Shown here in pieces: positions 23,635-47,300 of a stretch of 64,000 nt of DNA. The notes beneath the pieces are model-generated. The model searched no databases. It saw only the letters and a list, made by a program, of their open reading frames with translations, and was not told the origin of the DNA. Position numbers and translations under genes: made by a program. The stretch's first letter is position 1. Every line of letters starts with the position of its first letter. The DNA lies in assembly GCF_026151205.1 (NCBI RefSeq), contig NC_087073.1, positions 14,961,837-15,025,836 on the forward strand. The letters are read 5' to 3'. The stretch comes from Bolinopsis microptera. Taxonomy: Eukaryota > Ctenophora > Tentaculata > Lobata > Bolinopsidae.

Positions 23635-26600
23635 TCAAGGGTTGAGTTCTTTGTTGCATGGACCACACACTCTCAGTTCTTTCTTACTGGAAGGAGTAGA
23701 GCTGCGGAATCTCGAGCAGTGGTCACAGTAAATACCTAGTGGAAAATATGTTATGATTCGAGCAATGGTCACAGTAAATACCTAGCGAAAAATATGTTAT
23801 GATTCGAGCAGTGATCACAGTAAATACCAAGTGGAAAATACGTTATGATTCGAGCAGTGGTCACAGTAAATACCTAGCGAAAAATATGTTATGATTCGAG
23901 CAGTGGTCACAGTCAATACCTAGTGGAAAATATGTTTTACTTATGATTCGAGCAGTTATCACAGTTCAAATACCTAGTGGAAAATATGTTATGATTCGAG
24001 CAGTTATCACAGTAAATACCTAGTGGAAAATATGTTATGATTCGAGCAGTGGTCACAGTAAATACCTAGCGAAAAATATGTTATGATTCGAGCAGTGATC
24101 ACAGTAAATACCAAGTGGAAAATATGTTATGATTCGAGCAGTGGTCACAGTAAATACCTAGTGGAAAATATGTTATGATTCGAGCAGTTATCACAGTTAA
24201 AATATCTAGTGGAATAATAACTGAACTGCCATTTTGTACTCACCGTCTACAATACTCACAAAAAGTACACTAATAACTGTAATGTAATTCTTGTACTCAC
24301 AAAAAGTACAATAATAACTGGAATAAAATAGTGTTACTCACCTCCACAGTTCCTACAGTGATGTTTACGTAATGACACCCCGAACTCTTTGTAGCACGAC
24401 TTGCAGCTAGTTACCTCCTCGTCGTTCTCCCACCTGGTAGAAAAATGTATTAAACAAATAATTAACTTTTAAAAATATTATTATTGCGCTGTTAATTCAT
24501 AATTTTCGTATCATTTACGGATTTACCGGGTTGTACAAAAATGTCCGCGATTTGTTCTATAATACCAATAACATGAGTAAAGTATAGAATTTTGATTACG
24601 ATTAAATGATTTGTGCTTTTGTGTTACTTTATCTGTTCAGAATTAGATGACAATTTATGATTTTAACTTCATTAACTACAAATGGCCGAGATTGATGTGC
24701 CAGTTTTAAAATTTATTACTTTTATTTTCATTTCTATCGCTGATCAGTGATCGTTACGGTAAACTTCATTCTCCATAAAAATAAAGAGGAAAAAAAATGA
24801 CGTATTCAGTTTTGGAATACGATAAAGCTGTTGTAAAAGGGATTTACATTAATTTTTATGTTTCGTTTTGTTTTACTTGTCCAGTCGATATAATAGGCCG
24901 GGAAGAACTTGCAAAATTAATAATCGATTGCCTAATCACCATAATATCACTGATGTTGAGCTAATGAATGTGACTCCAAACTAAATCAAACCAAAAACAA
25001 AACTTGATGATCAGTAGTAATCTACTGATCAGTAGTATATATATATATAAATCAAGAGGCTTGCATATAATGAACATATTGACACATATATATCAGTAGT
25101 ATCTTACTTTCTATTTTGCTTCCTGGCTTGAGTGTAGAGAAGGTGGGAGTGTTCCTGAGCTATCTCGTTAAGAGTTGTCTGTGTTTTCTCCAGGTCGCTG
25201 ATCAGCTTCGTATTTTCTTGTGCGATCACGTGGTTTCTTTCCTCCGACTCTAGAACGCTGCAGAATTAAATTATTCATGCCAAGGAGTTCTGGGATTTTC
25301 ACGCTATTTTGTGCAATTATGGACCCTGTACAGTGTACAAACTGACGAACAGCTTCGCTCGTTTGCAAAATTTGGGCAGGAACCCAATTTGTGGTAGTAA
25401 AACTACAGATATAAACACGCAAACGTGACTAGCGCTGGTATACCCTGATACACCAGTTTTATATGTATTATCCAGAACATTATATATTTATTTTACACTG
25501 GTTTATAAGCAGTACCTCTTTTGAAGGAGCTTTCTTTCGTCCATTAGATTCTCGATTGTAACTTCAGTGATGTTAACTTTACCGTACAATCTTTCATTCT
25601 CTTTGTTCAATTCCTCGACCACTCCCTTCAATAATGTTAAGTTAAATTTTATCAAGTGGGCGTCGATAGATACCGTGTCACTGATTATGACGAACTGAAA
25701 AGGAAATTAAAAATGAACCTCACAATTTTATTTGTCATAATATTTAACATTCCCGACATTATAAACGAAACCTCAAATACGAGCTACAATTGAACCTGAG
25801 AATCTCGTAGTTTTTGTCTAAAGCTACTCAGTTCGTTATCTAGTTTCTCCATCTCAATCTCATGAGACTTGCTGGAGTGAAGGAGTTGGTCTGACAGACT
25901 GTCTATCCTGGACTCTGCCTTTTTCTAGAGGATCATGAGACCGGGATTAGTACGACCAGACTTGATAACATTATTTTAGCTCATGTAGAATGTCAACTAT
26001 TCGTGGGAAGAGTTGGCTATACCGGCAGAACGATTGGATAGCAAATAAGATTTTTTAATAAAAAGCAAAAATCTCACCAATTCCTCTCGGTGAGAATCTG
26101 ACAATGTTTCCATCTCTGTATTTGCCTCATTAAGTTGCTCTCTCAGCACTCCTAACTGCGCAGCCCTGGTACGTTATAGGTATGAACAACTATTCAGGTA
26201 TGGGGCAACTGTGCCAAGTTATTTATGTAGAATTACGGAGTTAAAAAGCTTAAGTTCTGAGGTGGGATGGGAAGTATGTGGCCGCAAAGGGGTAAATACG
26301 TATTTATTTATTTCATATGTTTGAATCAGTGCGTTGTACGCTCATACTCATCAGTAAACATTCCAACAATTTTTGTTTTCGTGCGATTAAACTTTAACAA
26401 TAAAACGTTCAGTTTCTGATCTGTCAAATTAAATTTTGCCTGATAATAATCAGTCTACTATCAAAAGAAAAATGTTGATCGACACGAAATTGGCAAATGT
26501 CCCGACCAGGAGAGACGGAGAGTGAGTTAAAATGTTCTATTGCTTCTAGAACATTCAAAGAGAAATTTGAAAACCACGTATGTAACAAAATTATTTCTCA

Positions 26601-29600
26601 TTTTAGAGTTTTAGGCTTTTATTCAAGCAATCTTTCTCACAAGTTCCTTAATTTATTTAATTAGCCACTTAATTAATTGTAGACGTTGTTAAATTTTAAT
26701 TACAAAACTAAAGGAAGGTTTAATAGAAACTAACGCGTGCTCCAAATCATCAGAAAGCTGCTGAACATCCTCGTGAAGTTTCATCTTGTGCGAAATGAGA
26801 AGAGCATTCTTACTGTTCAAATCTTCTAGCTCCTGACAGGAACATAAATAACTGTTAAATTAAGTGACCGCCTGTCAATTTATATTTCAATGATTTTTAA
26901 CCGATGTTTGAGCTGTGCCTAATTAACAAATACATATACCCTGTACATTATACAGGGTGTTTTGAAGAGAGTGTAAACTTTTTTTCACTCTCGTGATTTT
27001 TGACAAAATTAAAGTTCACGGTTCTTTTATCTGAATTTCATCAAAAATGTGATATATAATGAAATATATAGTACTCTATATATACGACAGAATATAATAT
27101 ATTATAGTACTCCGATAATCTGATGATATTACCTTGGAATGCATCTCAGAACCCTCCTTAAGAGCATGCTCCGTCTCATTTAGTTCCTGTTCAAGACGGA
27201 TTTTCATTTTTGTAAGCTCGGTGTTGGCATTTTCAGCTGATGAAGCTTTATTACTGGCTTCTTGTAGGTGACTCTCCAGCATTTTAACCTGTCAATATTA
27301 ATCCTTTTATGATTTAAAACAATAAACAAAAAATCCAGGATTTATCGGAAGGGAAATGATTTGACTTGTTCTATTTTGGAACCTGAATTGAAGTAAATTA
27401 CCTTTCCTCCAAGCAGATCATTGCTGTCCTGAAGTTGTGTCCTAGTTGCTTTTAGCATAGCCTCTGTGTTCATTGCGTTCTCCTTCTCCCTCTCCAAGTT
27501 GTACTCTAGATGTAGGAGCTTTTCAGAGTTACTCTCGACACTTTCTTGATATTCGGCCAATTCCCCTTCAAGTTCGGATATTTTAGTTTTCTGGGCTTCA
27601 GTTTCAGTTTCAAGCTCCTGAAATTTAAAACTGGTCTAGTGAGTTATTCAATCGATAAACAAACCTTAAAAGCATTTATAACTCATTTAGATATTTAAAA
27701 TCAAGCTAAGTCGTAGTTAACTGTATCTTACTTAAAAACAGTATATATTCAACCTGTATTTTAGAATGGGATTTGTTGATTCTGCTCTCATAATTCAAGC
27801 ACATTGTACAAGGTTTGGCGATGTCAGCCTCCAGTTTTTGTACTTTTTTGTTCAATGCAAGAAGCATCTCATCCTTTTTCTCAATTCGAGTGTTCAAATC
27901 TCGGACACAACTGCTGGAAACCTCAAGTTGTTCCTCGACCGATTTAATGCTTTCTTCGAGTGTAGACTTTTCAGAGGTTACGACCTCAAGACTATTCTTA
28001 ACCAAAGAATATTCGTCAAACTGAGATTTGAGAAGAACCTCCTTTTCAGAAGCACTCAGACTCAACTCTTCAATATTTGTTTCCATTTGACCCTCTTTAG
28101 CTAAAAGAGATGCCTTTTCTTCCTTAAGTTTCTCATTGCTGAGAGAAATTTCAGAAAAATCATTTCTTAAACTAGTCAGCTTAGAGTCGAGTTGATAAGT
28201 TTCATTACACTGTTTCTTGTATCGTTCAGTGGTCTCTTGCTCAGTTTCCTCAACTAATTTCTCTAGCTCAGCAACCTTCCCTTTCAACTGATTGATTGTT
28301 TGGTCCTGTTCATTTGCTTCATCAGATAGACGGTCTCGCTCTTCAGCCAAATTCTCACTTGTTTGTTGAAGTTCAGCGTTTCTCTTTTCTAAAGACGACA
28401 AATTATTGTCCCTATCTTCCAAAGTTTTGCTCAGTCCAACAATTTTACCGGATTGTTCTTGGGTCATCACGTTTTTGGTAAGATTGTCAATCTCAAGTTT
28501 GCTAATCCTCTCAGACAAAAAGTTGCTGTTTTGGTGAGCTGCAACGAGCTGTGACTCCAACTGAACATACTCTTGTTTAGTGTTTGATAGTTCTGCTCGG
28601 ATTGAGTTTAATTCAGTGGACAGTTCGGCGTTTCTGCTTTCTTTTTCCTGCAGAGAAGATTGGAATTCTGTAAAATTTGCTGCAAGCTGCTTCATTTCGC
28701 TGCTCTTTTCCTCGTCATCTTTACCGATCTGATTATTCATCCTGAAAGAGTTGATACCTCACGAAATGAAGGAAAGCAAAAGACTCCGTAAATAGTTTTA
28801 GAAGAATGGAAGTTGAACTTTCAAACAACAACAATTTTGTTAACAGAAACAGGCGAAGGGACGCATATACGCTCGTGACTTAACTACTGACTTGATTTCA
28901 AAAAGCAGTTTGGCGACCGCGCGCGCTGTCAATGTTTATAGTCCATACTTATTACTTACTGTGACAGAGTAGAATTGAATCCGTTCAGTCTTTCGAACAG
29001 TGAATTCTTTTCGTCTTCCTTCCTTCTTATATCATCAGTGTAACTGAAAAATTAACATAACCGCTCAATCCTTTGGATAATGTCTACACTTGAGCGTTTT
29101 CGGTTCGTATCGGCAAGAAAAATATCTTAGTTTTTAAAATCGGTCCGATAAGTCCAGAAATGAAAACATTCTGGAATGTATTACAATATCGGTACTTACG
29201 TAGAACAAAGAGATTCCAGCTCAGCTATCCTTGCAGTGAACTGCTTCATTTGTGTATCTTGTAGGGTTTGGGCTAGTTTCTCCTTGTCTACTGCGTTTTG
29301 TAACTGTGATATATCCGACGACAACCTGGATTTAATGAATCAGGATTGAGTGACGTATCATTAAAATAATACAATCAGTATTCCGTTAACATTAATTACC
29401 AGGGGACAATCAGAAAAACAGGAAACTAAGATACACGTACGTTTTGTTTTCGTTATGAGCGGTATCAAGGGCTGCCTCTTTCTGTGCAAGCTTATCCTCC
29501 ATCCTGGTAATTTATACATTATTTAGTTGGTACGTGTCACTTGTGTAAATTAGTAATTAGAATGTCTGAATCATGTACTAGGTATTTCATGGTATCAATG

Positions 29601-32600
29601 TATGTCCTGATGTTTAGTACATTTAGAGGAACCTACTTAGTCTTATCACTGAGATGGTCGCTGATCTTCTCTTTCAGTGTATCAGTTTCCTTTTCACCAA
29701 GAGCTAGAATAGAGTCGATCTGAACTTGGCACTTTGCCAGCTGCTGTTTTAATACGTCTACATCGTCATTTGAAGTGCTGGATGGGTTTAAAAATAACTG
29801 AATATTTCGATCTAAATGCGTTTTCTAAGATTTTAAGAGGACTGCAAAAGATAATTCCTGTGGTTTAAGTAAACAAAATTATAAAGAGAAAGACGTCCAA
29901 CTGCCACAGGTAGTCACGGCAGTGGAAAAATATGAAAACCTAATGTAAACGAATATGAAAACCTAATGTAAACGAATATGCTATAATTATAAAACAAAAT
30001 GAAATTATAAAAACAAAATAAAAAGGAAGAAAATGTAATTACTTCATTTAATCCCAAAATCTAAGGAAACCTCCAGATAAGCAGATTACCTCTGAACAAG
30101 TCTAGTTTGTAATGTCATCTGATTCTCACATAATTCCTCGTTAGTCTTCTGCAAGTTAGCTACATGGAACTCTAGTGAACTAGATTTGCTCCTCTCCTCA
30201 TCAAGCTCTGAACTTACTTGGGCCACTAAAACTGCCTGAGGGGCACTTTTTTAAATTACTTGAATGCTGTGTAACAGTGTTGGCTGTTTTTGTGCATATA
30301 GAAGCTTTAAATCGCTGCCACTGGATTACAAACATTTGCCACCTCCCAACTATTATCATATCAACTCTCCTCAGCCTTCTTACCAACAAAGTTACACTTT
30401 ACAGTAAGAATTGGATGATTTTAGTAATTCAATATCATCGTAATACATACATACTTGGGTATTTTAAAACACTACACTACTCAATAAAAGAATTCACCAG
30501 ACATGATCACAACAGGCCACCTACCAAGTCTGCAGCTTTCTTGCTGACCACATCAAACTGAGAGTTTCCACTTCTGGAGCTAATGCTTGCTTTCAGAGCC
30601 TGCAGAGTGCGGGTATTATAGATTTAATTAGCAACTAATTAAGTCATTAAGAAGAGGTTGGTACTTGACAATAGATTTAAAACCAATATATTTAATAATT
30701 ATTTAAATACATAATCTGTACCTCGTTTTCTTCCTCTACTCGTTTTAACTCTTTCTGAAGTTCAGCTGAGTACCAACTCTCTTCCTGACATGTAGTTTAC
30801 ATACATTCACACGAACATCGATCAAGATTGAAACGAGCAAATCAGTCTTATTTCAAATACCTTTTTCATTGAATTTACAGCCCTTTAAACAGCCATTTAA
30901 AATTGTCAGCATTAGCATGAGATCACTAATCAACAAATCAAAGCAATCGAATGGAAACTAATTGTTTACTTAACTAACCAATCAAACTTAACATTGAATT
31001 AGATAAACAAACAAGAACAACACACCTGTAGAGAGATACCCAAATCATCTATATCCTCCTTCAGTCTAGCTGAGGTTTTCTCTGATCCATTGAACTGAAC
31101 GCTCGCTCCTCTGTCCTCCTCAACTGAGCCGGCTCCAAAGCTCTCCTGAGTACGCATGTGATAAAGTCATTACATGAATATTGGTAAGAAACGTTTTGCT
31201 GTTTAGAAGTTTGAACTGAAAGATAAACTCCCTGCCCAACTCACTGCTAATTGCCCTCTGAAAGCACTGTGTGGCTAGTACAGTGATATTGTTCTACCTC
31301 ATTATGTAAATTACAGACCCATTGTGTCCCTAGCTATCTCATTAACAAAGCGCGGTGGGTACCTCAAAAGTCAAAACCCTCAGCGCCTCGCATGCTGCGT
31401 ATAAAGAACACAAAGAGCTGCCTTCGCCCCCAAATCCTTTAATAAAACTCCTGCTCTCGCTATATTGTATTTCACTTTATTAACAACCTCCTGCTTTATA
31501 CATTATGTATTTGTTCCTCGGGAGTCGGTTAGATGTCCACTTGTTCCCTTTAATGAGATAATCTCCATCAGAACAATGAGACTGCTACTTATCACTCAGG
31601 AAACCCAGAGACGCTCTCTTTACCTGGCTCACTTTACCTAGCTCACTTGGACTCTCTAGTTCTCTATTCGTTTGTCGAGGAGTTCTGGAAGCTTCCTATT
31701 CATCTAACTTCTAACGTTATTTCCTAACCACTGATCACTTGATAGCCGCACCGTTCTTATTAACCAACAATTCCAATACTCACACTATCTTATTAAATTA
31801 TGTCAGTTTATTGTGATCTGCGAAGTCTCTTTTCTTTAATAGTCCTTACAATCAATACCTAGCTCCTTTTCTCGACACTTACCACTTTATAGGATACTGT
31901 TTATATATAACTGTGTTTTTATGTTTAGCTGATATACAAACAAAATCAACCTAAACCTATACTAACGAAATGGTGAATGAATATTTGAAACTTTTTTCCT
32001 ATCTAGACACAATGACAAAGTCAATGTTTCGATTACTGGCACTTCTCTGTATCCCTCTACTTCACTGTGGTTAGTTTTACGTTATTCGGGAATCTGTGAT
32101 GATTTTAAAATTATATCATGCGATACTAAATATTTTATTTCTAATTATTTCCTGATATTTCAGCGTCAAGACAGAGACTATCTGGTGAGACAGTACCAGT
32201 CAGTGCTGAACAGTCCCGTACTAGCGAAGATAACGAGGAAGAGTTTGCTGCTGTGAATGCAATAGACCTAGACTTTGCTACCTAGGTACTCTAGAACAGT
32301 CGCTGGTCCTGACGGTAAGATCTGGTTAGAGTTAACTCTAATTCAGGTGCAGTGTGTTGGACACGTGATAAGGTATGGCCAGGATGGCAACACTATGCTC
32401 ACTTTCATCTGCTCTGATGCTGACTGTAGTACCTGTGGGGGTACATTCTGTTCCCAATTCACCCTCACAGTGTACGAAGAAGGAGTTTCGTCTGACAACC
32501 TCCCTTATATATCCGGCTGTAAATACGGAGACAGAGTGAAGTTAGAAATGAGTGATGTTAGTGATGGATCTACGGGGCTTAATGGGAGAGAGATCGCGGT

Positions 32601-34689
32601 TATCAGGAAAGAAGGTGATTTGCACAGATCAGTCGTTTAGGATATATTTCAATTATTATTCAACGGAGAATCCTGCCAAAAAATTTAAGTTTCTCCATGG
32701 GTTATAATAATAATAGTATGCGAAAACACTAGCGGGTCGAAACAGTGATAATGCAAAACTCACAATTTTTCTACAGATTGTGCTCCTGGGAGTTATATGG
32801 ACTCTACAACAAAGCACTGTACAGAATGCCACGCCGGAACTTTCAATGATGAAACAGGACGAAACACCGAATGTTATGAGTGTCAAGCAGGAAAATACAG
32901 TGATGCTGGATCTGCAACATGTTCTGAATGTGAAGCAGGAAAATACAGTGATACTGGATCTGCAACATGTTCTGAATGTGAAGCAGGAAAATACAGTGAT
33001 ACTGGATCTGCAACATGTTCTGAATGTGAAGCAGGAAAATACAGTGTTGCTGGATCTGCAACATGTTCTGAATGTGAAGCAGGAAAATACAGTGTTGCTG
33101 GATCTGCAACATGTTCTGAATGTGAAGCAGGAAAATACAGTGTTGCTGGATCTGCAACATGTTCTGAATGTGAAGCAGGAAAATACAGTGCTGCTGGATC
33201 TGCAACATGTTCTGAATGTGAAGCAGGAAAATACAGTGATTCTGGAACTGCAACATGTTCTGAATGTGAAGCAGGAAAATACAGTGATGCTGGATCTGCA
33301 ACATGTTCTGAATGTGAAGCAGGAAAATACAGTGATGCTGGATCTGCAACATGTTCTGAATGTGAAGCAGGAAAATTCAGTGATGCTGGATCTGCAACAT
33401 GTTCTAAATGTGAAGCAGGAAAATTCAGTGATGCTGGATCTGCAACATGTTCTGAAAATTGCCTCAATCTGGATCCTCAGTTGAAGATCGAAGTGGAATT
33501 ACCAGCGGAGCATGGTAAAGAAATGATCTACCGCTGTCCACGTAAACACATCAAGAAAGACAAGACCGCTGCAGTGATTTGTCAAGATGGAGATATAACT
33601 TTTCAAAGCAGACCCTCTTCTTGCTTCATTTTTGTTTGATTTAAATTTCTGTACAGAAAAAAACCCAAATTCAAAATTTAGATTACTAAACTCAGTTTAA
33701 TGTCAACTTAAAGTGAACTAGGTTAGGAACAAACCATATTATGTAATAATTGTTCCTTCCGATAGGGCTCGGTTGAAACAATTATTCCATTTTGGATTTT
33801 GAAAACTTTTATATATTATTCCATTACTGCAGTGTTTATGGAATGTGTTTACTGATTTAGTACGCAACTTCAGTGTTTTTAGTAGCAGTGCCGTTATTTT
33901 CACTAATCTTCAGTTTTTAGGCAGGTTTACATTGTACGATAAATAATATCACTCATTTTTAGTGCGAAATTAGGACAATAATCCGACTCACTAGTCAAAT
34001 TCGTTCTTGTGATTATTGAACTAACACCACCTCCGGTATGATATAATATTTACCTTAACACACTATTAGGTCGTCATATTACCCTGCACACTTTATCCCA
34101 AAATTATAATACATAATTAATTAATTGTAACACATAACAAAAATGTTTCATAGTTCTTACATGATAATCAGCAGGAGGGTGAGCTTTAATGTGATGGTCG
34201 CTGAGATCGTCTATAGATGAGAAGTCTCGTCTACATTCCGGACAGATAAAACCTTGTTTTTCCTCCTGAAACAAAGTGGTTTACGTGCCACACCTACATT
34301 CTGTACCAGTCGGTATGTTAGTTATTTTGAATATTATGCAGTTTTATTTTCATCCTTCCAACGAGACCGGATCTCATAATTTTCGATTATTTTTTCTGAT
34401 CAGATTCGGAGAGAATAATACTCTTTCACAAACTTTACAAAACATTACAAATTACAAAAGTTGAACTCAAAACTAAAGTCACGGCAGCAGCAAATTCCTT
34501 GAACGGGACTCCGATTTCGTAAATTGTTGTAATGTTCATGATAAAATTAAGAGATCTCTCTAAAATACGTACTTAACCAAACCCTACAGCAAACCCTTCA
34601 GAAGTACCCAGAGTTCTAGTAGAAACTGGGAACTTTTCATTACATACCTGCTGGTTGGTTCGAGATCGGTTTAGGAACTTGTTAAACAT
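23635..34689 (-). CDS. EEA1: early endosome antigen 1 (20 exons, 1053 aa)
   Basis: Exons: 34648-34689, 34161-34265, 31026-31145, 30722-30784, 30525-30599, 30090-30235, 29637-29777, 29441-29503, 29200-29325, 28960-29043, 27754-28741, 27402-27617, 27133-27288, 26735-26832, 26078-26165, 25796-25924, 25516-25694, 25108-25257, 24342-24433, 23635-23735 (3162 nt, phases consistent). EEA1 tethers early endosomes, binding Rab5 through its N-terminal C2H2 finger and PI3P through its C-terminal FYVE finger. Both are visible: a C2H2 finger at residues 22-43 (CPECRRDF...HHIKAH), then about 900 residues of heptad-rich coiled coil, then [13 protein letters not shown] and the PI3P-binding [11 protein letters not shown] at about 990-1053. 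The vertebrate protein is longer (about 1410), mainly in the coiled coil. Exon 20 is preceded by a tandem array of copies of its own acceptor. Intron 2 holds a complete opposite-strand gene. Confidence 0.93.
23712..24212 (-). repeat. 46-bp minisatellite carrying copies of the EEA1 exon-20 splice acceptor
   Basis: About ten units, most 46 bp, lie immediately upstream (in EEA1 sense) of the last exon. Each contains, on the minus strand, TTTTCCACTAG followed by the first 24 nt of exon 20 (GTATTTACTGTGACCACTGC and four more) and an AT-rich spacer. Two units have lost the AG (CTTG instead of CTAG; near 23828 and 24112), and one near 23935 has a small insertion. Because 46 is not a multiple of three, using any upstream copy shifts the frame and gives an early stop. 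Confidence 0.9.
26938..26959. repeat. paired TACAGGGT ends (palindrome)
   Basis: ACCCTGTA-5 nt-TACAGGGT lies in an EEA1 intron, followed by GTTTTGAAGAGAGTG. The half-sites match the termini of the mariner-like elements at 7435 and 49004. Either two ends abut or this is a tiny solo remnant. Confidence 0.4.
32012..33639 (+). CDS. secreted protein with 12 GCC-type 16-residue repeats and a sushi-like end, nested in EEA1 intron 2
   Basis: Proposed exons: 32012-32069 (signal peptide [15 protein letters not shown]), an optional 21-nt exon 32164-32184, 32300-32614, and 32777-33639 with a TGA stop; phases agree. Exon 3 encodes a domain with paired cysteines ([26 protein letters not shown]) that I do not recognise. 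Exon 4 has two diverged units, then twelve nearly identical 16-residue units ([16 protein letters not shown] type, 33-bp-scale identity), ending in a four-cysteine sushi/CCP-like segment (CLNLDP...YRCPRK...VICQDG...RPSSC). The repeats resemble the GCC2/GCC3 or ephrin-receptor-like family of extracellular cysteine repeats. It is on the strand opposite to EEA1. The 5' model is uncertain: read straight through from an acceptor at 32164, the frame hits a stop at 32283-32285, just where the downstream frame opens. Confidence 0.65.
32881..33456 (+). repeat. 48-bp coding tandem repeat, 12 units
   Basis: Twelve head-to-tail 48-bp units encode the 16-residue cysteine repeat. Variation is concentrated in one codon pair (GAT GCT, GAT ACT, GTT GCT, GCT GCT, GAT TCT). 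Because 48 is a multiple of three and the unit lacks stops, other frames on both strands also stay open. Those are by-products. Confidence 0.95.
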
Positions 34690-35172: not shown

Positions 35173-38100
35173 CTATCCCTCACTTCTCGGTGCCAAAGTC
35201 CTCAGATCCTTGATCACATTATCATAACCCCACTTATCACACAACCTAGGAAAGAGTTTGTCCACGTAGAACTGTCTCAAAACCACCAGATTCCTCTGCC
35301 AATCAGGATCCAGCTCCACTCTGGTCACGTGGGATAGATCCTGAGTCCAGGTTATCGTGTCACAATACGATCTCCCAGAGAAATACAGCGCACCCTGAAT
35401 CTTAGAGTAAACTCTGTGAGATTTCTTCAGAACAAGCTGCCCTGACTCTGATTCCTCCAGGTAGAAATTAGGGTCGTTAAGAGCTACAATCTCCCTGATA
35501 TTAGACACGTTCTTGTATTTGTACAAACATCTCACATCAATAATCCCTCTACCGTCAGGTAAGAGCCCCTTAACACTTGCTCCTAAAATACCACTTGGAT
35601 CTAACCACAATCCACTGGGCAACACCGTCACTGACTTCTCCCCCTCATACTTCTCGATAGCTTTAACTGTATTTACCCGGGTTAGTTTGGCTATGTTAGT
35701 GTTCACCATGTAATACTCGTCCATTATTGATTTGTAGAGGGAGGCAGCGTAAGAGTCCCTACTTACAGCTGATAACACTTTGTGAAAAGAGCTGGAAGTT
35801 AACCTGTGCTCTCTAATTGTGAACCACAGCTTAGAGTGGAAATGTTCAAACGGGGACGAGGTCAGAGCAGCCACTTTCACAATGTCATCCTGGTTCATCT
35901 CGGGTAGATCTCTTATCACAGAGGAATCATAACACCCGGGCTCTTCACTAACCACACCTTTCCTCATCCTCCTCTCCTCTCTCTTCTGCTTGGAATCCTC
36001 CATTATCTTATCAATATTAGACACCATGATAAGATACTCCTCATAAACACACTCTTCATCTGGATTACCTGTTATTCGGGGCAGGAACTGTTTGAAGTAG
36101 AAGGTAATGAGTTTGGAGAGTGACTCTTCCCAAGCAGGGTCCTTGTCTATACGCAGGATGTAGGGCTCAGACACTGGACTCCACACACAGAAGTCACAGT
36201 ACTCTCTCCCTATTATGTAAAGCATTCCTTGTATCTGGGGGTAGTGGAGTGTGGTGAGGTAATATTATGGTTTGGGATACTGCATTAGAAAGCACATTTG
36301 TTATATCAGTTGCAGCTTTTTTTGTGCGTAATATGAACAAATTCGCGCCATTATTTGACTTATAATATCAATTTGACAAATTAATTGGCAGAGCTAAACT
36401 TCTATAGTTTTATAAAAGTCTCAAACCTGGTGATAATAAGGATGTTTAGGATCCAAATAAACAGTTCCATCGTCCCTTCTCTTGATATAAAAGCGAGGAA
36501 CAGTCCCTATAGCGTCCTCTACCCTCATCTCTCTCAGAGTATAAGGACACTTGAACTCTACCAGCCCTATACCATCAGGGAGGAGCCCGTCTGGGGAGGC
36601 TCCCAGGATACCACTGGAGTGTAACCACAACCCACTTGACTCTACTTTTACTCCTGGGGAAATGGTTTTTGTACAAATTAACACCTTTATTTTATCATGA
36701 TATAATGGAAGAAAGTTTATGATTCTTTTAAACTAAAACGTAAGTTTCATAAAATAATTCAACAACTTACTATAAAATTGTAAGTCATTCGAACACATAA
36801 CACTAGCTTTGATTTGAATAACAGTGCTGAGTTACAAAAGTTACTACTTAAATGAGTAGTAATTACCTGTAAATTTTTCGTAAGCAAGCTTAGCATTATC
36901 TTCATTGTCATTACCCCACTTGATTGCAGCAACATGAGATAAATCATACTTGTTCAGCAGATTTTTAAACAGATAATCCGGATACCTCTTCCCATCAATA
37001 GCCTTGAGAACCATTCCAAACATGCTCGCAGTAATGCGTTTCTTTCTCAGCAGTTTCCAGATGTTCTCCTCCGCAGAGCTCTGCCCCTCGGTTAGTTTGG
37101 CGATGTATTCTATTGTGTCTGATGGTAGCTGCTCTAAACTTGGTAGAGTTTCACCTTTACCTTCCTCAGCTTGTACAGTCGGAGATATTGGAGATGTGGA
37201 GGACGTGGTGGTACCAGCATCGTTTGAGGGTTTGTTGATTGAAGGAATGCTAGGAATGCTAGGAGCTGTAGGAAGAGGGGACCACGCTATACCCGTAATA
37301 CCATTGAACGCTGCACTGATATCTGACTCTGTGTAGCTGTAAATAGAATAAGACAATATAATGTTGCCGGTCTGCACAGTACGAAAGCAGCACAGAATGG
37401 TATGCATTAAAAGTTTTGGTCGATTAACAAAACAACATCAAGCTAATAATAAACGACGAAAGCTACAAAACAAACCTTGCCAAACCAAGACGTGAAGCAA
37501 TATCTCCACATTTCAGAGATTCCACATGAAGCACCGCCGCTAAAGAGAACTTGTCCGAGTTTTCAAGCACACAGAACCGTAACTTCATGTCCTTTATAGA
37601 CGGGGTTGACGAGGCTGGGCGCTTCATAATCTAGGAGTACATAACATTAACATAACATGTGTTATGTGTGTTATGTGATGTTTACATATTTCTTATATTA
37701 TATGTGTTGATAAATCGTATCGCTTCACTCGGCTTTATACGTATTTGCCTTGTAAACATGGCGAATTGCCAAAAATGGGAAAAGCAGTGACAGTTGAAGC
37801 TCAGGGAAGAACTTAAAGTTATTCTTTCAACACATCAATGCAATGTATTGTATAATATATAATATATATATATATTATTATGTGTAAAGCGTATCGAGTA
37901 GGAAATAACTGAAACAGGAACTGAAGTCTGAACCACGCTTTTTCTGTCTGACCGAACTTATTTGCGGCCATAAAATGGCATGTTTTGTGAACTTAATTGA
38001 AGGTAATAAGTAAGATTGCGTGAGCATCAGCTTGGCTAAATAGTGATCGCCATTCGACTTTACGAGTATAAGTAATGATTTTGATGAATGATTTTAACGG

Positions 38101-39454: not shown

Positions 39455-40705
39455 TCAAAATTCCGACTCTAAAAACTGCTGTAAGATTTTGGGCTCTACA
39501 GGAATGTAAAGAACCTCGGACCCATCAACATGACGTGTCTTTATCAATCTGTGATCTTTAAACTCAGTTAGCTGTGTTCGCAACGTAGCATCACTGTTAA
39601 CCAGAAACTTCTCACGGCACTTTATGTAAAAATCTTGGAATGTTATACCCTGAAAATCGGGTCCGGATTCCTGCTGGAAAGTTGCCAAAAGTTTGAAAAT
39701 ACCACGTGCATTGGGAGTGAGAGAGCGCAGCACGTGCGTCATAGATGACAGAGCTATCGCGCCAGTTTGTTTTACCATCAGAGAAGTCTCAATAGAAGTC
39801 TCGTCAGAGTATTTATCAAATGTGGTACAGTCAAACCATAACCAGTTAAACAGCTTCGCTTTCTGTTCGTCCCAGAGTAGGGGTGCGTTAATGTGATCTA
39901 TAGTAGCGATCACGTGCACGTGTTCAATAGCTGATAACTCTGCTAACACTTGCTGACTTTTATCGTTTCTCAGATTAGAACCGTCTATATTATTGATAAG
40001 AAGGTACAATTGGTTGTGTCTGCTGTTTCTGATGTAATTGAGCTGATCATTAGTTGATCTGAAAGTTGAGCTGCATCCCAGCATATCATTAGAGATACTG
40101 TTGAGGATGTCTCTAACTGTAAGATTAGGAAAATACCCGTTTATAACAACATGATGATCGTACTTCAACATTTTCTTAGCAAAGTGAATGAGGAGTTTCC
40201 GTTTAGATCCCACACCGTAACACACCAAGTTGTATCCCTCAGTAAGATATATCAACCACTGTGTAAAGGACTGGGTGTGTTCAGCAAACAGAGCCGCTTG
40301 CTCCTTATCATACCCTGTCTTCATCTTAGATAACAGTTTTGTTATCTTATTGTGATCCAACTCCTCCAGTGCTAGATCATGTAGGGTTTTATTGGATGTC
40401 TTCCCAGCACGCCTCGTGTGAAAGTAAGACTCGATATTCTCCTTGTTTGAGACATGCTCATCAAGCTCCTCAACCTTGCGACGCTGCCCCACACTCAGCT
40501 CCGCGTCATCAGACTCATCACTAGAGTTGTCACTAGCAGAGTCCGAGGAGTCTCCTGAAGACTCGTCCGAGTCAAACTGCTGGAGAGGCATGGTGTGGGC
40601 GTACTTGGTTTGTTTTAACTTGCGGAGGAGATATGGTGTGGAGATGTCACGTTTTAGCTTCTCCGGACTAGGAGATTTTAAGGGGCTTTCAGCCATTTCT
40701 GCCAT
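39455..40705 (-). CDS. ORC2: origin recognition complex subunit 2 (single exon, 416 aa)
   Basis: ORC2 is a core subunit of the six-protein complex that marks replication origins and loads the MCM helicase. The N terminus is short, basic-acidic and disordered, with a long Ser/Asp/Glu stretch (SDSASDNSSDESDDAELS). From about residue 110 the conserved AAA-like and winged-helix regions follow: YNLVCYGVGSKRKLL (the ORC2 P-loop-like segment), HVVINGYFPN, NIDGSNLRNDKSQQVL, ATIDHINAPLLWD, KLFNWLW, then the highly diagnostic LTPNARGIFKLL and TFQDFYIKCREKFLVNSD. The protein is shorter than the human one (577), the difference lying in the disordered N terminus. The frame extends to 40768 only from a TTG; ATG 40705 is preferred. 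It is intronless, like MAD2L2. Confidence 0.95.
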   Translation of the reverse strand: MAEMAESPLKSPSPEKLKRDISTPYLLRKLKQTKYAHTMPLQQFDSDESSGDSSDSASDNSSDESDDAELSVGQRRKVEELDEHVSNKENIESYFHTRRAGKTSNKTLHDLALEELDHNKITKLLSKMKTGYDKEQAALFAEHTQSFTQWLIYLTEGYNLVCYGVGSKRKLLIHFAKKMLKYDHHVVINGYFPNLTVRDILNSISNDMLGCSSTFRSTNDQLNYIRNSRHNQLYLLINNIDGSNLRNDKSQQVLAELSAIEHVHVIATIDHINAPLLWDEQKAKLFNWLWFDCTTFDKYSDETSIETSLMVKQTGAIALSSMTHVLRSLTPNARGIFKLLATFQQESGPDFQGITFQDFYIKCREKFLVNSDATLRTQLTEFKDHRLIKTRHVDGSEVLYIPVEPKILQQFLESEF

Positions 40706-41328
40706 CAGTACAGAATGTAACCGTACCAACCTGATAATGTTATGAAGACAAACTACGTCAAGACTCAAGAGGCAAGCAACGGATTTAAAGTTTTGTGGTT
40801 ATACAATATAGAGTAGTAGTTAGGTAAATTATGACGTCAAACATTATCATACTGCATAAAACGGTAGTAAATTTATTCAATACTCAACAAATTTGATATA
40901 TAGCAGGTAAGGTGAGCCAATACGCAAGTAAAACGAATATTGTTTACATTAACTTACATTTGATAATCAACGTGTCATACTATAATACAAATCGAATGAA
41001 CTTTATTTGTTTAATCTAAACATCATCTACAATTCACTTAACAGTTAAGAGGGCCCGGCCACGGTGCATACAAAACGTTTCATTCAAATTCTATCTATAC
41101 AATGAAGTATAGCAGTATAAACCAATTTCACGCATTTACAGGCACTAATTGGCACTATAAACTATAGAGCTATTATATCCGGCAGGGACAAATTCACTCC
41201 GTAAAACGAAGTTACACTTATTGTGCTTGCCTAAATCTGAAAACAAAACCCTAAGCACGCATCTAACTACTTTATCGATATAAATTACAAAATCAAGAAT
41301 GCACAATCAAAAACAATCAACAATCATC
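40706..41328. other. ORC2 5' flank / ACOX 3' flank
   Basis: About 620 bp, AT-rich, without a gene. It contains the ORC2 promoter and the acyl-CoA oxidase 3' UTR. Confidence 0.4.
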
Positions 41329-44300: not shown

Positions 44301-47300
44301 CAAGTGGGTCTATTTGATGCCGGATAGGTTCGGGAGCCAGAACCTATTAAGGTTAGGTCTTGGAGTTAGCTGGGTAGTGGTTAGTAGGTTAGTGGCGGTA
44401 GTGTTATAGTGAAGCATTACGGAGTTACTGTTATCAGGATAGAGGCATTTGTAGCGTAGAGATGGTCAACAAGGGTTGATTCAGGAGAGCTGACATAGGC
44501 AGAGATTGGCTTTGTTGTAGCCGGGGTCAACAAGGGTTGATCTGACGCGAGGGGGCGTCTTGACAACTATAGGGCTCGGGTAGAGCGAGAATCAACAATG
44601 GTTGATCTAGGACGGATATATTAGGGGTAAGGAAGTAAAGCAATGGTTGACTTCAATAGGTAATGCTAGTTTAAGGGTAAGACTCCGAGAGGAATGGTCA
44701 GCGAGGGTTGACTTCAATAGGTAAGGGTAGAATTAAGGGCTGGAATTGTGTTGTGTAGTATTTGAGGTAATATGAATCGGAGTAATTAGGAGTTTTGTTG
44801 TGTAGTATTTGAGACAATATGAGTCGGAGTATCAGTAATGAGGAGTTTTGTTATGCAATTAGTCGATTATTCGTTGTTCAGTTTGGTACCTTTGTTACCA
44901 TTATTATCCATCTTGTTTCCATTGTCCAAGCCCTTAATTAAATACGAATAAACTTCGAACGGGAAGCAAGTGTCCACTGCTTACATAATTAAAGAAGATA
45001 CTTCAAACAAAGCCGCAAATTTAAACTTATGCTGCGATCAAGCCCCAATATTTGCCAAATTTGCCGCACTCTTGCAGCTTGCTGCATATAATTTAGGCAG
45101 GTGCAGAATCGCAGTATTCACAAAATTGTACCGCATTTATTAAGTTGTCTCTGATCCCTAACATTGTTAGGGACTCTCGTGCGTTGTTAGGGCCTAACAA
45201 CGCACGAGAGTAATAATTCAGAACCCGGTCCTACTCCTCAGTGCTGGAACTTCTAGTTACGTTTGGTTCTAGTGATAGTTCCGTATAGTTGTATTAAATA
45301 TTTCGTTGTCTGAACTGTCTCAAGATGGATTGTGTTGCTCTTATCGTTCCTTATATTATTTAGAAGCAGTCAATTATTAAAAAAGAGATGAAAATATGTG
45401 ATCATGTATAATATATAAATGACAATTCTTTGTTAGCTTGATTTTCTCCGTAAAAGATTTTAGTACAATAATGAATAAAGCACATTTGTCATACAACGAG
45501 AACTCAGCCGAAAGGAGAACATGTGTAAACTGACAGTTCCACCACATCGGAGTGGACATGTCTAGAGTGAACACAATTAGTCTATCCTCAGTGCCTTGTA
45601 CTTTGGTGTGGTTTTTAGTTAATCAGTTCCGTTGCAGCCTAACAAACATTAAAATGTTAATATTTTAGGGAGTATACAGCCTGTCGGGCTGCAGTATATT
45701 TATCGTACTTTCTCGTGCTCTTTATCATTTGTGTGCAATTAGATTAGGTGCCCACCAACAACTGATATCACTCATGGCTTATATAACCGAAACACTGATA
45801 TTATTGATTAAATTATTGATTTTAAACTAATTATGTTATTATTATTGATTAAACTTATTTTAGAATAGGTTTCATAAAAGGTTATTATATATAATACGGA
45901 AAATAATAACAGTGGAATAATCTCGCTGCTAAAAGTAAAACATTGCAGTATTAACCTGGCTCTGGTTGATTTAATATCAGAAATTAAAGTTCCATCCTCA
46001 CTCAGTTTACTGAACTTATCCAGTAGGTTATCTATCGGTACTGAAATTAATAAGTTAAAGTTCCATCCTCACTCAGTTTACTGAACTTATCCAGTAGGTT
46101 ATCTATCGGTACTGAAATTAATAACCTTGTCTTAGATTTATTAAGACAAGGTTATAATAAATGATAAATTATAGTGGTATAATGTATTGTAGCGATTGTT
46201 GAAACTTCATAATATATGATATATTTACAAATCTAAGACAAGGTTACAAATCTAAGACAAACATATTGTATAATATATACAATATCTTTGTCTCAGCGGC
46301 TCTCCTCAAAAAACTTTCTCTCCTCAAAAAGACATCCAATCAGATGATGAGTGCTGCATAATGACATTATCATATTGTTATCTTGCTGAGTTTATATGCA
46401 TTACAAAAGGGTGGGAGGGGTGGGGCAGGAGGGTGGGGCAGGAGGGTGGGGCAGGAGGGTGGGGCAGGAGGGTGGGGCAAGGTAGTGGTTGCAACATTGC
46501 ACGTCTTCCTATCACTTATAACTTAATAAACTAAATAAGGGGGAGATGACTATACTTGTACTTTAATATGGTCATCCCCCGCCTCCCCCCCCTCCCCACC
46601 CGAAATAAATATTATATCTTATCAGACCAGCTAGCTTACCTCTGACATTGTCGAATGTAAGTTTAGCATTGTCGACACCATTGAGGCCCATCTTGTAGCC
46701 CATCTCCTCCACCAAGACATCGGGCAGAACGTTCAGTTCCTTATCTCTAATGGGGACCAGAACAGCGTGGATACCTGCAAATAATACACATTTTAGCTTA
46801 CTCTAAATGCCGGTGTACACTATATAGTAATCAAATTATATATTTATCGTGTCTATATTAATTATAATATAGTTATTCAATGTTTTCTACAGAACTTATG
46901 TAAGCCGTGATCAATTGAGATGAATTTTGGGTAATATTGTGTAATATGAAGTTAGTATATGATTATAATAAGGTGGTCGTGTTGTCCAGTATTCTACCGT
47001 AGTATTTTGGGGGCATATATTAGTATAAGATATTTAATGCAGTGAGAGGGCAGAGAGGTTAGTTTAACATATGTTTGAGTTTGTACGAGGTTGGTTTGTG
47101 GAGTGTTTAGAGATTACTAGAGTTACTATGTTGTGGCTATCGACAGGATAGTTGGGGATTGTTTAGAGATTGCTAACAGGGAGTGGGAGATTGTTTAAAC
47201 TATCTGGGGGCGAGATGGATAGGAGGTTGGCTTTTTGGGAGGGGGTTTTTTTTTTTTTTTTTTTTTTTAAGAGAGGCTGGGCCTGGTTGGCCCACGAGAG

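Follow-up and report, generated by a model that had tools for sequence, protein, structure and literature searches.

The window analysed here is the whole 64,000-nt stretch of DNA from the comb jelly Bolinopsis microptera, and positions are given within it unless stated otherwise. On its minus strand lies a gene that, judged by similarity and domain content, is EEA1. The two last coding exons, when joined, encode a FYVE domain whose best matches are the EEA1 FYVE domain (1hyi, 4.3e-18; 1joc, 2.4e-17), with the FYVE domain of RUFY1 nearly as close (7e-17). A C2H2 exon of the gene was identified at 34244 by means of a regular expression, and the exons between it and the FYVE exons were judged by eye to be coiled-coil-like. 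The EEA1 layout of an N-terminal C2H2 finger, a long coiled coil (by eye) and a C-terminal FYVE domain is hence present, in agreement with the identity given in an earlier note on this DNA. In the exon list the starts of exons 12 and 14 are approximate. The genome yielded no second EEA1 in a search that returned 12 other matches at most 56% identical and in which a miss does not prove absence, and a search for a processed copy of the spliced EEA1 junction gave 0 matches in the genome with three mismatches allowed. A FYVE exon 246 kb away (C2:14740017) was considered as a paralogue yardstick and set aside, since it looks like part of a different FYVE protein and is of no help for the ancestral acceptor. 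Elsewhere in the window, plus-strand open frames at 32272-33639 carry a 12-copy, 48-bp cysteine-rich coding repeat and apparently represent a gene nested on the opposite strand within an EEA1 intron; YqaJ-like, recombinase-looking frames occupy the minus strand at 35173-37437, with a weak match for 35173-36264 (0.0016, below the cut-off); and a minus-strand ORC2 gene at 39455-40798 holds both ORC2 domains (2e-79 and 1.6e-21) within a single open frame. The features of the EEA1 terminus, together with a comparable duplication in an acyl-CoA oxidase (ACOX) gene, are collected in Table 1.

Table 1. Terminal exons, last intron and repeat units of the EEA1 gene, and the boundary duplication in ACOX.
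Feature	Position in window	Strand	Basis
Penultimate EEA1 coding exon (exon 16), first half of FYVE, end ...TGTGGAG	24342..24433	-	exon reading, FYVE match
Last EEA1 intron, 606 nt, GTGAGT ... CCACTAG	23736..24341	-	sequence read
Donor-side tandem repeat, 41-bp period x 2.2, begins exactly at donor	24253..24341	-	Tandem Repeats Finder, sequence read
Copy 1, 48 bp, AG then ATATTT (no GT), weak acceptor score 1.57	24158..24205	-	alignment, score
Copy 2, 46 bp, AG|GTATTT, exon-like 24 nt as in real exon	24112..24157	-	alignment, score
Copy 3, 46 bp, AG lost (CTTG)	24066..24111	-	alignment, score
Copy 4, 46 bp, AG|GTATTT, exon-like 24 nt as in real exon	24020..24065	-	alignment, score
Copy 5, 46 bp, AG|GTATTT	23974..24019	-	alignment, score
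Copy 6, 54 bp owing to insertions, AG|GTATTT, exon-like part reaches a stop codon after two residues	23920..23973	-	alignment, translation
Copy 7, 46 bp, AG|GTATTG	23874..23919	-	alignment, score
Copy 8, 46 bp, AG|GTATTT, exon-like 24 nt as in real exon	23828..23873	-	alignment, score
Copy 9, 46 bp, same sequence as copy 3, AG lost (CTTG)	23782..23827	-	alignment
Copy 10, 46 bp, AG|GTATTT, ends in real acceptor	23736..23781	-	alignment, score
Last EEA1 coding exon, second half of FYVE, end KELNP stop	23635..23735	-	exon reading, FYVE match
ACOX boundary duplication (71 bp x 2.0, copies 100% identical) of acceptor TTATTAATTTCAG together with 58 nt of exon; decoy exon start 46111, real start 46040	45984..46124	-	Tandem Repeats Finder, family match

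Inside the last EEA1 intron, ahead of the real acceptor at 23735, lie ten tandem copies of the 3' boundary, where the earlier note had counted about ten duplicated acceptors in front of the last exon; Tandem Repeats Finder reports the array at 23712-24219, with a period of 46, 10.8 copies and 88% matches. The unit consists of 24 nt of exon start followed by ATCATAACATATTTTCCACTAG. When the copies are cut at the boundary, each is seen to combine a 22-nt intron tail carrying the acceptor with the first 24 nt of the last exon, which is the composition that had been proposed. The exon-like first bases fall at 24205, 24157, 24111, 24065, 24019, 23973, 23919, 23873, 23827 and 23781, and that of the real exon at 23735. 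A uniform length of 46 bp, also proposed, holds for eight of the ten copies and fails for copies 1 (48 bp) and 6 (54 bp). The AG is kept in eight of the ten, the two units noted as having lost it being copies 3 and 9, which read CTTG. The 46 bp after the AG loss are the same in both and, because these copies are identical, the loss would most simply represent one event that was later copied. The exon-like 24 nt of copies 2, 4 and 8 are unchanged from the real exon. The first unit of the array is diverged and the last is not; the latter leads into the authentic exon, which completes the FYVE domain and matches EEA1. Allowing up to three mismatches, a 23-nt degenerate motif of the unit has nine occurrences in the window, eight of them inside the array and the ninth at the real acceptor, against a mean of 0.01 in 100 shuffles. 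Genome-wide, a 26-nt motif gave nine matches, all at the EEA1 array and its real acceptor, with 0 for the reversed control. The array itself has one match in the assembly, by a genome DNA search of a kind that can miss repeats.

The same intron is also repetitive at its donor end, in a repeat that is absent from the earlier note. GTGAGT occurs at 24341, 24300, 24259 and 24243, the last of these beyond the range reported by Tandem Repeats Finder. The donor-side units are made of intron sequence only, the exon end not being copied, and on translation splicing from a later GTGAGT leads to an immediate stop. Taken together, the two repeats (23736-24205 and 24253-24341) make up about 559 of the 606 nt of the intron.

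The consequence of each acceptor choice was assessed by translation. Joining exon 16 to each upstream copy produced an early stop in all ten cases, two of which are hypothetical for want of an AG. The earlier note had placed the stop after about 19 residues for any upstream copy; the early stop is indeed general, and it lies 19 residues past the cysteine-glycine that ends exon 16 for seven of the ten choices, the distance being 35, 27 and 2 residues for copies 1, 5 and 6, respectively, with the product of copy 1 out of frame at first. All ten products are without the last FYVE zinc pair, a loss that had been correctly anticipated. A FYVE domain without its last zinc pair would be expected to lose PI3P binding, and truncated EEA1 made from an upstream acceptor should therefore not bind PI3P.

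Splice-site strength was evaluated with a weight matrix built from a small set of 17 acceptors and 18 donors (16 and 17 from EEA1, one each from ACOX), hand-picked by homology and frame; the 23735 acceptor was left out of the matrix and donor ranks were computed leave-one-out. The real acceptor at 23735 scores 5.83, and seven of the ten upstream copies score between 5.83 and 5.86, above 10 of the 17 real acceptors. Copy 1 reaches 1.57, and the two copies without AG reach 1.03 and 0.32. Three more AGs in the donor-side part, at 24317, 24276 and 24225, score 7.46, 5.30 and 5.00, the first of them only 24 nt from the donor. With seven decoys scoring as well as the real acceptor, local sequence gives the last copy no preference over them. 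Concealment of the decoys by RNA structure was considered and rejected, the region folding less well than its shuffles (z = +2.16; of 20 shuffles, 19 were as stable or more so). The intact exon behind the last copy would favour that copy, and protein homology points to 23735 as the acceptor used. The array is a natural test of splice-site competition, in which seven decoys of equal score face the real acceptor on one transcript and each wrong choice shows as an early stop, and it poses the question of how the spliceosome picks among equal acceptors.

Boundary duplication recurs in this genome. In the ACOX gene, the exon with the duplication and the exon preceding it match acyl-CoA oxidases (1.7e-7), a later exon matches ACOX_C_alpha1 (3.1e-26), and translation from the decoy acceptor runs into a stop. 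Repeats were further surveyed in a genome sample of 20 stretches of 10 kb (200 kb), taken at preset rather than random places, which contained 11 distinct arrays (14 rows) with a period of at least 20 and at least five copies, and 23 repeats with a period of at least 30, compared to nine of the latter in the window. The sequence was read around three of the sampled repeats, one in L010 and two in L011, and the count of mirages, as such boundary arrays are called below, is accordingly a lower bound. The first of these (L010 8986-9281, 48 bp x 6.1) holds six units, each composed of a donor and the 11 nt with which an open frame ends, the first unit being presumed real, and is probably a donor-side mirage; it is graded as probable because no family match was obtained for its exon, the open frame with the array lacking a Pfam match and the downstream frame showing a weak one to DUF4139 (5e-5; 23.5 bits against a curated cut-off of 31.8). 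A candidate is provided by L011 413-609 (108 bp x 1.8), which copies TTTTCAG along with what may be the beginning of the HIRA start exon. A second HIRA repeat (L011 3307-3546, 127 bp x 1.9) was rejected as a boundary copy, as it begins just downstream of a likely donor and the donor is not copied. Over 264 kb the survey thus comprises two clear cases (EEA1 and ACOX), a probable one and a candidate. Ras genes were considered as a wider test of acceptor duplication and offer few introns for it, because 17 of the 20 listed loci hold the whole domain in one frame; a cluster of Ras-like genes at C1 12.43-12.46 Mb likewise includes many whose entire domain lies in a single frame. The sample also contains a 52-bp repeat of 41.5 copies and 99% identity (L016 1-2157), which is truncated by the end of the sampled stretch.

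Arrays of this type have been described from lancelets as mirages (PMC3087553, PMC3902484), and the accounts given there share several traits with the EEA1 array. The amphioxus mirages in BflGb6, BflGb9, Adh3, TnC and PGBD5 are, like it, minisatellite-like tandem copies of an intron-exon boundary, and in BflGb6 the intron 3' end and the 5' part of the exon are copied, as in EEA1. Both 5' and 3' boundaries can be affected in amphioxus, with AG or GT present in many, not all, copies, and the clusters there are described as undergoing concerted evolution with diverged edge units, whereas in EEA1 only the first unit is diverged. Unit lengths reported for amphioxus are 150-160 bp in the globins, 10-72 bp in Adh3, and 60 and 108 bp in PGBD5, against 46 bp in EEA1. 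Regular splicing is reported or suggested to be undisturbed by the lancelet mirages in globin, Adh3, TnC and PGBD5 (PMC3087553, PMC3902484), and in particular globin RT-PCR and the Adh3 data suggest normal splicing although many copies keep AG or GT (PMC3087553). Length variation is to be expected of a minisatellite, and two BflGb6 haplotypes have six and three units (PMC3087553, PMC3902484). The amphioxus cases concern another phylum and other genes. In its sequence features the EEA1 array is nonetheless what a mirage is expected to be, with an intron end and an exon start in each unit, a last unit that enters the authentic exon and most of its AGs retained.

We consider it probable that the EEA1 array is such a mirage, a boundary minisatellite whose decoys are mostly ignored and whose last acceptor is mostly used. 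It would have started with the tandem duplication of a short stretch across the boundary (the 22-nt intron tail with the acceptor plus the 24-nt exon start) and grown by slippage or unequal exchange, its copies sitting in the intron as decoy acceptors. The spliceosome would mostly pair the donor at 24341 with the last acceptor at 23735, removing the array together with the intron, and some use of upstream copies, as noise, would give an early-ending EEA1 expected not to bind PI3P. The substitution pattern among units is consistent with neutrality. Eight distinct substitution events were counted, four in the 24 exon-like sites and four in the 22 intron-like sites (p = 1.0), and the chance of at least one of the eight hitting the two AG sites is 0.30; events were counted by eye with indels and copy 1 set aside, so that this is a weak test on few events, and within it selection is apparent neither to keep nor to remove the array acceptors. 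The identity of copies 3 and 9 and the unchanged exon-like starts of copies 2, 4 and 8 are as would be expected from array turnover. The position of the array on an acceptor was examined as a possibly remarkable coincidence and rejected as such, because a random 508-bp stretch in the EEA1 gene covers at least one acceptor with probability 0.79 (one of the 18 acceptors being approximate). The neutral minisatellite born from an acceptor duplication, one of two origins offered in the earlier note, thus finds support in the array-rich genome, the expected chance coverage, the even substitution counts and the recurrence in ACOX and, probably, L010.

What the EEA1 case contributes is a boundary minisatellite in which an unusually large number of decoy acceptors are intact, of value as a competition test and as a sign of recurrence in the genome. 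New here are the recurrence of boundary arrays in this genome, the repetitive 5' intron end that starts at the donor, and the presence of AG|GT in seven of the ten copies. The clear, probable and candidate cases together suggest that duplication of boundaries is found at a great distance from lancelets too and makes introns longer. Among the literature matches listed, no report of a boundary minisatellite in a ctenophore was found, and those on splice-site competition and on VNTRs at acceptors held nothing decisive; the available portions of work on exon skipping in animals, Mnemiopsis included, contain no mention of boundary repeats. Tandem duplication carrying splice signals is known to alter intron structure in the potato RdRp intron gain (PMC4974935) and in Rogers' model (cited in PMC3087553); as described, both concern the gain of an intron, whereas in EEA1 an existing intron is lengthened and no new intron is seen. 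The mouse Daf1 tandem repeat was discarded as a parallel, being a pentanucleotide repeat in intron 2 described, in the text available, with no mention of splice sites.

The mirage explanation might be refined, without being excluded, by a dual-specific (recursive) ladder, in which splicing to a decoy rebuilds a donor that is re-spliced to later copies until the last is reached, leaving the mRNA unchanged and the array tolerated. We regard this as unlikely, and the evidence is mixed. AGGT spans the unit boundary in seven of the ten upstream copies (2, 4, 5, 6, 7, 8 and 10), supplying the AG|GT sites of such a ladder, and at the real acceptor; yet AG|GT arises wherever an exon begins with GT, which in this exon is part of a glycine codon. 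The rebuilt donor GAG|GTATTT in six copies scores 6.42, above 12 of the 18 real donors, and the in-place TAG|GTATTT scores 5.76, above 11 of the 18, whereas copy 7 rebuilds GAG|GTATTG at only 4.99, above five of the 18; the set of 18 hand-chosen donors is small, and 4.2% of the 526 other GTs in 24350-34000 also reach 6.42. Copy 1, which alone keeps the AG but lacks the GT, is in addition the weakest acceptor among the copies with AG. The ACOX duplication reads AG|TA and rebuilds no donor (score -5.25), yet exists. Comparable systems are known in other animals. In human UBC, tandem AGGT sites, each a potential acceptor or donor as in EEA1, are usable both ways, such dual-specific arrays are spliced, and removable repeats have been proposed to be less harmful (PMC10809524); as described there, the UBC units are 228 nt long, in frame and coding, whereas those of EEA1 are 46 nt long, out of frame and would always lead to a stop, their dual use being predicted from sequence score. 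Drosophila ratchet points likewise place an acceptor and a donor side by side around a zero-length exon, and are described as abundant in long introns (PMC8605326), whereas the EEA1 intron measures 606 nt and its sites are tandem copies. That a decoy splice could be re-spliced without trace is a testable idea. A broader version, in which boundary minisatellites are a common route of intron growth in this comb jelly and those with AG|GT form a self-correcting recursive ladder that is harmless at any length, appears equally doubtful.

The other origin offered in the earlier note was a length-variable switch, in which the balance between EEA1 that binds PI3P and EEA1 that does not is set by the ladder and tuned by copy number. 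All ten upstream choices give proteins without the last zinc pair, as such a switch would need, and with the stop located in the last exon junction-dependent decay would probably spare the mRNA. No feature in the sequence, however, favours regulation: the units bear no sign of selection (in the weak test above), a like duplication occurs in the unrelated ACOX gene and probably in a second, that of L010, and a literature search on EEA1 isoforms without FYVE yielded nothing to the point among the matches listed. A regulated switch is therefore considered very unlikely.

Still less probable is an assembly artefact, in which the array would have been made or stretched by long-read gap closing. Tandem arrays are error-prone, and a Bolinopsis microptera assembly, presumably the one used here, is described as gap-closed and polished (PMC10232365); but the units differ from one another and share variants among them, exons of one gene lie on both sides of the array, and many other arrays are present in the genome. 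The same assembly had its haplotigs purged (PMC10232365), which, if it is indeed the present one, would explain why only one allele of the EEA1 array is seen. That the decoys have won, leaving EEA1 as a gene without a working FYVE domain, would fit the seven upstream acceptors whose scores reach that of the real one, and is just as improbable given that the last exon retains a full conserved FYVE half and stop and that the genome search described above revealed no other EEA1.

A separate observation was made with photoproteins, the genes for which, to our knowledge, are without introns in ctenophores. An aequorin query against the genome returned 55 matches of 24-32% identity, nearly all of them one open frame each and many clustered in tandem, as suits a luminous ctenophore; a cox1 search, by comparison, gave no match in the assembly. 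Photoprotein-like tandem clusters are located at C1 22.0 Mb, C3 3.4 Mb, C5 17.01 Mb and C13 11.08 Mb, where single frames lie about 0.94-1.03 kb apart.
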